DNA of 64,000 nucleotides, taken from NCBI RefSeq assembly GCF_000819885.1, contig NZ_CDBO01000047.1:44470-108469 (forward strand), read 5' to 3'. Position numbers and translations under genes: made by a program. Within the stretch, counting starts at the first letter, position 1, and each line of letters opens with the position of its first letter. The notes under the pieces were generated by a model. The model worked only from the letters and a program-made list of their open reading frames with translations. It ran no database searches and was not told the DNA's origin. The stretch is from Aeromonas fluvialis (GTDB lineage Bacteria; Pseudomonadota; Gammaproteobacteria; Enterobacterales; Aeromonadaceae). This document shows, one piece after another, positions 48,276 through 49,586 of the stretch.

Positions 48276-49586
48276 ATGCCCAACACCCAGGCCCCCATTC
48301 TTGACGTACCGGATAACGGGGGGGAGTTCGCCGCTGATAACGGCCAGCACCAGGCCCCAATCCTCGACGTACCGGATAACGGGGGGGAGTTCGCCGCTGA
48401 TAACGGCCAGCACCCAGCCTCGCTCCTTGCCGTACCGGATAACGGGGGGGAGTTCGCCGCTGATAACGGCCAGCACCCAGCCTCGCTCCTTACCGTACCG
48501 GATAACGGGGGGGAGTTCGCCGTTGATAGCGGCCAGCACCAGGCCCCAATCCTCGACGTACCGGATAACGGGGGGGAGTTCGCCGTTGATAGCGGCCAGC
48601 ACCCAGCCCCAATCCTCGAAGTACGCGATCTCGAGGTGGAGTTCGCCGTCGACGACGGCAAGATCAAGGTGCTCGACGGGGTCAGCTTCAAGGTGGCCCC
48701 GGGTCAGACCTTAGGCGTTGTCGGCGAGTCTGGCTGTGGCAAGAGCGTCACCTCGCTCGCCATCATGGGGCTCTTGCCCAAACCCCACGGTCAGGTGGTA
48801 GCCGGATCCATCCGCTTTCAGGGGGAGGAGCTGCTGTCGCTTGCGCCGGATCAGATGTACAAGGTGCGCGGCAACCGCATCTCGATGATCTTTCAGGAGC
48901 CGATGACGGCCCTCAACCCGGTGCAGACTGTGGGGGAGCAGCTGATGGAGGTGTTTCGCCTCCATCGCCCCGAGTATGACAAGGCCCAGCGCAAAGCCGC
49001 TGCCATCGCCATGCTGCAAAAGGTGGGGATCCCTGAACCGGCCCAACGCTTTGCGGTCTATCCCTACAACCTCTCCGGCGGCATGCGCCAGCGGGTGATG
49101 ATCGCCATGGCGCTCTCCTGCGAGCCAGACCTGCTTATCTGTGACGAGCCGACCACGGCGCTGGATGTCACTATTCAGGCCCAGATCCTCGAACTGATGA
49201 AAGAGCTGCAGGCCCAGACCGGGATGGCCATCATCTTTATCACCCACGATCTGGGGGTGGTGGCGGAGCTGTGCGACGAAGTGGTGGTGATGTACGCCGG
49301 GCGGGCGGTGGAGCAGGCTGATGTGTTCGAACTGTTTGACCACCCCCGTCACCCCTATACCCACGGCTTGATGAGCTCGATCCCGCGCCTTGAGGATGAG
49401 CCCAAGAGCCTGCTCAAGACCATCAAGGGACAGGTGCCAGCCCTGCACGAGATGCCCGCTGGTTGCCGCTTCTCCAACCGCTGCCCCCACGCGACCGATC
49501 TCTGTGTCAGCGCCGTTCCGGCGGTGGAGCAGCTAACCTCGCGTCACCATGTCGCCTGTCACTACTGGAAGGAGTTGACCGTATGA
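48276..49586 (+). CDS. Peptide ABC transporter ATPase, DppD/OppD type, with a 105-residue N-terminal repeat insertion
   Basis: The 436-residue protein starts MPNT after AAGGGA, then has five 21-residue repeats of the form QAPILDVPDNGGEFAADNGQ(H), then a normal ATPase domain beginning APILEVRDLEVEFAVDDGK. Walker A is GESGCGKS, the signature LSGGMRQR, Walker B LLICDEPTTALD, and the C-terminal peptide-transporter tail HPYTHGLMSSIPRLEDEP is followed by the FeS-type cysteine stretch CRFSNRCPHATDLC. The repeats resemble the ATPase's own first residues and probably arose by duplication. Each repeat carries seven consecutive G, so slippage could switch the frame. An ATG at 48231 inside the binding-protein gene is less likely. 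Confidence 0.85.
   Translation: MPNTQAPILDVPDNGGEFAADNGQHQAPILDVPDNGGEFAADNGQHPASLLAVPDNGGEFAADNGQHPASLLTVPDNGGEFAVDSGQHQAPILDVPDNGGEFAVDSGQHPAPILEVRDLEVEFAVDDGKIKVLDGVSFKVAPGQTLGVVGESGCGKSVTSLAIMGLLPKPHGQVVAGSIRFQGEELLSLAPDQMYKVRGNRISMIFQEPMTALNPVQTVGEQLMEVFRLHRPEYDKAQRKAAAIAMLQKVGIPEPAQRFAVYPYNLSGGMRQRVMIAMALSCEPDLLICDEPTTALDVTIQAQILELMKELQAQTGMAIIFITHDLGVVAELCDEVVVMYAGRAVEQADVFELFDHPRHPYTHGLMSSIPRLEDEPKSLLKTIKGQVPALHEMPAGCRFSNRCPHATDLCVSAVPAVEQLTSRHHVACHYWKELTV
48288..48602 (+). repeat. Five in-frame 63-bp tandem repeats inside the ATPase gene
   Basis: Units start at 48288, 48351, 48414, 48477 and 48540, each exactly 63 bp. All contain gtaccggataacggggggga and encode VPDNGGEFA. They differ in two blocks: QAPILD (units 1, 2, 5) versus PASLLA or PASLLT (3, 4), and ADNGQH (1-3) versus VDSGQH (4, 5). 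A sixth, diverged copy at 48603-48665 is the true start of the ATPase domain (PAPILEVRDLEVEFAVDDGK). The block mosaic suggests unequal recombination among units. Confidence 0.95.

Follow-up and report, generated by a model that had tools for sequence, protein, structure and literature searches.

What is a run of tandem repeats doing at the beginning of an importer ATPase gene? In the window (the whole stretch of Aeromonas fluvialis DNA analysed here, 64,000 nucleotides), an OppD/DppD-like ATPase gene encoding 436 aa (48276..49586, plus strand) has an N-terminus extended by 63-bp units, each with a run of seven G. A first-pass annotation took this for a contingency locus. Is it such a switch, a tail whose length is under selection, or a tail that the importer simply tolerates?

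An importer operon with a repeat-extended ATPase gene

The gene lies in a run of plus-strand importer genes: a YejB/OppB-like permease (44150..45229; PF00528; NCBIfam YejB, 255.2 bits, below the cut-off of 445), a YejE/OppC-like permease (45232..46275; PF00528; NCBIfam microcin C permease, 274.3 bits, below the cut-off of 439), a family 5 solute-binding protein (ORF at 46328..48244; PF00496) immediately upstream of the first ATPase, and a second importer ATPase (49583..50629; PRK11308, 419.5 bits, above the cut-off of 408) whose opening ATGA overlaps the end of the first. At the start of this second ATPase gene the tandem-repeat finder detects no array. In the first ATPase, profile search places PF00005 (ABC_tran) at residues 133-294 and PF08352 (oligo_HPY) at 345-410, both passing their curated cut-offs (106.2 bits against 25, and 79.3 against 27.1). 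The complement is that of OppD/DppD importers: an ABC ATPase with oligo_HPY, two permeases, a family-5 binding protein and a second ATPase. No named NCBIfam OppD or DppD model reaches its curated cut-off with the first ATPase, the best being PRK09473 (OppD; 387 bits against 575), with PRK11022 at 361.8 against 541; the substrate is therefore a prediction. The five-gene run is OppD/DppD/Yej-like, a predicted peptide importer.

Five in-frame units (48291..48605, plus strand) stand between MPNTQ and the ATPase domain, with the period, positions and G runs first described for them: APILDVPDNGGEFAADNGQHQ (48291..48353, G7 at 48318), APILDVPDNGGEFAADNGQHP (48354..48416, G7 at 48381), ASLLAVPDNGGEFAADNGQHP (48417..48479, G7 at 48444), ASLLTVPDNGGEFAVDSGQHQ (48480..48542, G7 at 48507) and APILDVPDNGGEFAVDSGQHP (48543..48605, G7 at 48570). 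Any two are identical at 53-61 of 63 positions, with 2-10 differences per pair. From ATG 48276 the frame stays open across the array and on into the ATPase. It had been said that every unit is free of stops in all plus-strand frames; this holds for the gene's own frame and the next, and fails for the third, which has 16 stops (4, 3, 3, 3 and 3 per unit). Open frames also cross the array on the minus strand, and we take them for a side effect of the repeat's lack of stops. Rfam gives no match at gathering score in 44000-51000.

Translation would start at ATG 48276. A likely ribosome-binding site, AAGGGA (48261..48266, plus strand), precedes the array, 9 nt before this codon, and is found at identical spacing in 19 of 37 genomes of the genus. 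Within the array there is no in-frame ATG, GTG, TTG or CTG, and a single ATT (48297); the first such in-frame start codon after it is GTG 48636, already inside the first strand of the domain.

Origin of the units and their number across the genus

The annotation had proposed that the gene duplicated its own first domain codons, and this is likely. The units align without gaps, as it had stated, to the true domain start (48606..48668, plus strand; the first strand), which is identical to each of them at 41-46 of 63 positions and to their consensus at 45. Against all window positions on both strands the consensus averages 16.6 identities (SD 3.7), and its best match outside the array and domain start is 35/63 at +14983; on the minus strand, scores of 34-37 recur every 63 bases where the array is compared with its own reverse complement. 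The relationship extends beyond this genome: wherever a genome has a full-length unit (20 genomes), its last unit agrees with its own domain start at 36-48 of 63 positions, and in each at most 1 of 2000 codon shuffles does equally well. Zero-unit relatives have a few start codons and then pass directly into the domain. The array is thus best described as an in-frame minisatellite, most likely copied from the opening 63 bases of the ATPase domain in the same gene. Whether the genome has the unit at a second place was also considered; apart from the array and the domain start, the search gave no strong match, only four of 23-31 bp with E of 0.05-0.6.

How variable is it? The genus search, set for 60 genomes, gave 37, one per species and including the source genome; in this between-species set the ATPase gene is found in every genome, open and in frame. 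Thirteen have no unit, 20 have one (16 full units and 4 shorter inserts counted by eye as one degraded unit), three have two, and only the source genome has five. The expectation that copy-number change keeps the frame is thus borne out, at 0, 1, 2 or 5 units. Comparison across Aeromonas had been put forward as the check on this locus, and its outcome is divided: copy number varies, G-tract length does not. With units counted in this way, a gene-body tree (37 rows, careful method) requires at least nine changes of unit number, and so does a wider tree of the locus (31 rows by a quick method, after six whose flanks were too short had been dropped); close relatives branch in a different order in the two, and many forks stay open, so that single events cannot all be placed. 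G035, with no unit, falls within a supported clade of one- and two-unit kin in both trees, so clean loss is its simplest reading; G020, also without units, lies inside a unit-carrier clade in the wider tree only. Clean loss of units thus probably occurs as well. A further zero-unit genome, G006, sits on a long branch inside a unit-bearing clade in the wider tree, a possible case of locus exchange.

The units are a mosaic, as had been noticed. Units 1-3 of the source genome carry AADNG and units 4-5 AVDSG, and unit heads (APILD, ASLLA/T) and tails (HQ, HP) combine with both; of the recombination described as ongoing, what is visible here is only variation from one species to another. In each of the three two-unit genomes an AAD unit precedes an AVD unit and the junction bases are the same, which suggests, from these few sequences, one older two-unit state behind them. 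In one (G003), two bases common to both units occur in none of 16 other units listed; again from few sequences, later homogenisation is suggested. Whole units would likely be gained and lost through recombination or replication slippage, with unequal exchange or slippage between the 63-bp direct repeats moving the unit number; the importer ATPase would stay on throughout, and only the length of its predicted disordered N-terminal tail would change.

Closely similar proteins bear Aeromonas labels, A. sobria and A. veronii among them. A search with the repeat protein alone returned 161 matches. Among the best 120, which are cluster representatives only and each cover 39% of the query, there is no multi-unit protein, and the best is the one-unit P0001 (657 aa, on a contig of 3,920,399 bases). 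P0001 was considered as a same-species allele and rejected: of 285 domain residues it shares all with four other genomes and 283 with the source genome, and so offers no evidence of within-species variation. Its 657 residues take in both operon ATPases, apparently because the frame changes close to where the two genes meet, be it a real change or a sequencing error.

There is good support for a coding minisatellite that is in frame, derived from the gene itself and of different unit number in different species. It resembles bacterial intragenic VNTRs, with in-frame, head-to-tail units inside an open reading frame, a number that varies between relatives (here among 37 species) and mosaic variants. 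Such repeats are usually found in surface proteins. Here, in contrast, the gene is a transporter ATPase, the variation is seen between species, and the likely source, the conserved domain start of the same gene, still adjoins the array. This makes it a clear case in which the probable origin of a coding minisatellite is visible beside it, and alleles of zero, one, two and five units in living relatives make it possible to follow how an intragenic repeat arises, expands and is lost. Promoter tandem repeats of Mycobacterium tuberculosis, one of them of 54-56 bp, are linked to expression in the part of PMC12817950 available; they are similar in length, lie near gene starts and change by whole units, and the array here differs in lying in coding sequence and altering the protein. 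Titles and abstract openings, in a search that most subscription papers fall outside, yielded none on this locus, and the word oppD is absent from the main text of PMC3037875 so far as that text was available.

A tolerated tail or a tuned one

What, then, might the extra residues do? AlphaFold2, run on an alignment of 39 sequences of which few have units, gives residues 8-107 a pLDDT below 50 and places no strand or helix before residue 114, where the domain's own first strand is predicted to begin. From residue 111 most ten-residue blocks reach at least 90, in a mostly confident ABC fold. The domain is closest to E. coli OppD and DppD (OppD 8z21_C, TM-score 0.94 by target length). The matching part starts at residue 2-15 of the chain in the solved structures of OppD and DppD, whereas here about 110 residues come before it. 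The N-terminal tail is thus predicted to be disordered, and its low pLDDT may partly reflect the few unit-bearing sequences in the alignment.

Divergence (Nei-Gojobori; 20 genomes with full units, or 11 close genomes, with the zero-unit close relatives G020 and G035 left out) points in a similar direction. Among the five units of the source genome dN/dS is 0.48, between units and domain start 0.74, and for units across the genus (20 genomes) 0.46-0.52. For the first unit it is 0.52 over 20 genomes and 0.91 over the 11 close ones, with wide bootstrap ranges (0.31-1.08 overall, 0.33-4.7 in close kin), and for the last unit 0.32 in the close genomes. The domain after its first 63 bases gives 0.10 and 0.05 in the 20 and 11 genomes, respectively. 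The units thus appear much freer than the domain, under constraint that is relaxed and still present; they do not look clearly neutral. Because constraint is weak and disorder is predicted, the best reading is that the tail is mostly tolerated. We consider it probable, overall, that the locus encodes a tolerated in-frame minisatellite tail that changes length by whole units, and not an on/off switch.

Another possibility is a selected rheostat, in which the number of units would determine how active or abundant the importer ATPase is, or how it assembles. Repeated changes of unit number on the trees would suit such a length-tuned tail, as would the residual constraint (dN/dS 0.3-0.5 in several comparisons), and synonymous sites give a further hint: in close kin the first unit has a synonymous divergence of 0.063, lower than in 88 of 89 overlapping windows of neighbouring genes (median 0.22). 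This argues against mere tolerance, because a tolerated tail does not predict such a dip. Similarly low values (0.05-0.07, 11 close genomes) extend across the final 29 codons of the gene for the binding protein, from 48155, with 0.28 in the five codons between the end of that gene and the first unit, and 0.18 in the last unit. Against a rheostat stand the 13 of 37 genomes that do without any unit and the predicted disorder of the tail, and we regard it as unlikely.

A likely independent version in another genus of the same family is also to be counted in its favour. Among 23 genomes of that genus, a scan of N-termini picked out two in which the orthologous ATPase start carries 27-bp units at the same place: three in G059 (L157; MEALLQVEK TEPLLRGKP TEPLLQVEH; none of 5000 shuffles as good) and two in G051 (L176; 10 of 5000 as good). 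These differ from the 63-bp units in both length and sequence, and so are likely a separate event. A third candidate there (L180) looked alike by eye and was rejected on its poor 27-bp alignment (6/24), and scan matches of 12-25 bases in G036 and L152 are probably chance. As a control, a domain search of genome contigs gave 80 distant ABC ATPase loci, also used for the structure alignment; none is titled Aeromonas, and near records may be left out. Self-duplication at p < 0.01 was found in none of the 38 distant OppD-like loci that could be parsed (42 of the 80 were unparsed by motif), by a scan that is insensitive, recovering 16 of the 24 unit-bearing genomes of the home genus, with a p floor of 0.0099. 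Could this gene start be a recurrent hotspot of self-copying in two genera (63 and 27 bp), with unit number a heritable dial on peptide uptake? The combined proposal seems unlikely; if unit number did affect uptake, a nutrient importer would have a length dial in its coding sequence. Elsewhere in the window, a perfect 33-bp in-frame duplication (PATIAQAKEEK twice; 61921-61992) lies in a minus-strand ORF (60951-63275) that we take to be AsmA-like.

The five-unit count comes from a draft assembly of 76 contigs, and the true allele might have fewer units. Array and domain start together span 378 bp, and short reads, according to the available part of PMC12817950, fail to resolve most such tandem-repeat arrays. 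Such an assembly product is nevertheless very unlikely: the five units can be told apart by their pairwise differences, and arrays of two units occur in three other genomes.

G tracts and the contingency-switch reading

There remains the reading with which the locus was introduced, that slippage in any of the five G7 tracts switches the ATPase off and on. Its premise holds in computation: one G gained brings a stop in the same unit (products of 20, 41, 62, 83 or 104 aa), and one G lost carries translation out of frame to an end at 145 aa, before the nucleotide-binding loop, so that a one-base slip would indeed abolish the ATPase, and more units put more tracts at risk. In these respects the locus is like the poly-G contingency loci of Neisseria and Campylobacter, which also have G tracts in the 5' part of the gene where a slip abolishes the product. 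It differs in having tracts of only G7, absent from some units, with no slip variants in 20 genomes and mismatch-repair genes that are open: mutS and mutL are both present in the source genome, above their cut-offs.

Among 27 full units in the 20 genomes, 15 have exactly G7 (GGG GGG GAG), four have G6, owing to a different next codon, and eight have no tract; none has a tract longer than G7 or a slip variant. Six of the eight tract-less units have GTG there, like the domain start, and may therefore never have acquired the tract. The G7 is probably a by-product: GTG at the domain start would have become GGG in a unit and then spread with the units. Nor is G7 remarkable for this window and genome. 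The window has eight G or C runs of at least 7, five of them in the array, fewer than the average of 16.5 in 30 first-order Markov simulations of it, and G8 is matched 142 times in the genome, counting overlaps and both strands. In deep-sequenced meningococci, tracts of at least 8 bases were mostly variable, a criterion below which each G7 of the array falls; the same source (PMC5084427, in the part available) also mentions a C5/C6 tract that varies, so that shortness does not preclude variation.

With every one of the 37 genes in frame, no slip in 27 units, tracts below 8 bases, mutS and mutL open and 11 longer tracts (10 to 13) elsewhere in the genome, phase variation by G7 slippage was rejected as the main reading and is highly improbable. 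A G-rich repeat at a gene start should have its tract length compared between relatives before it is called phase-variable.

Those longer tracts, 11 runs of 10 to 13 G or C (for example, G000:C11:19854-19866), are better slippage candidates than G7; the one of G13 lies next to a run of N. Around position 1501 of L163 (G000:C13:26124-26133), a ten-base C tract on the minus strand of the locus lies near the start of an open frame that is presumably a membrane permease.
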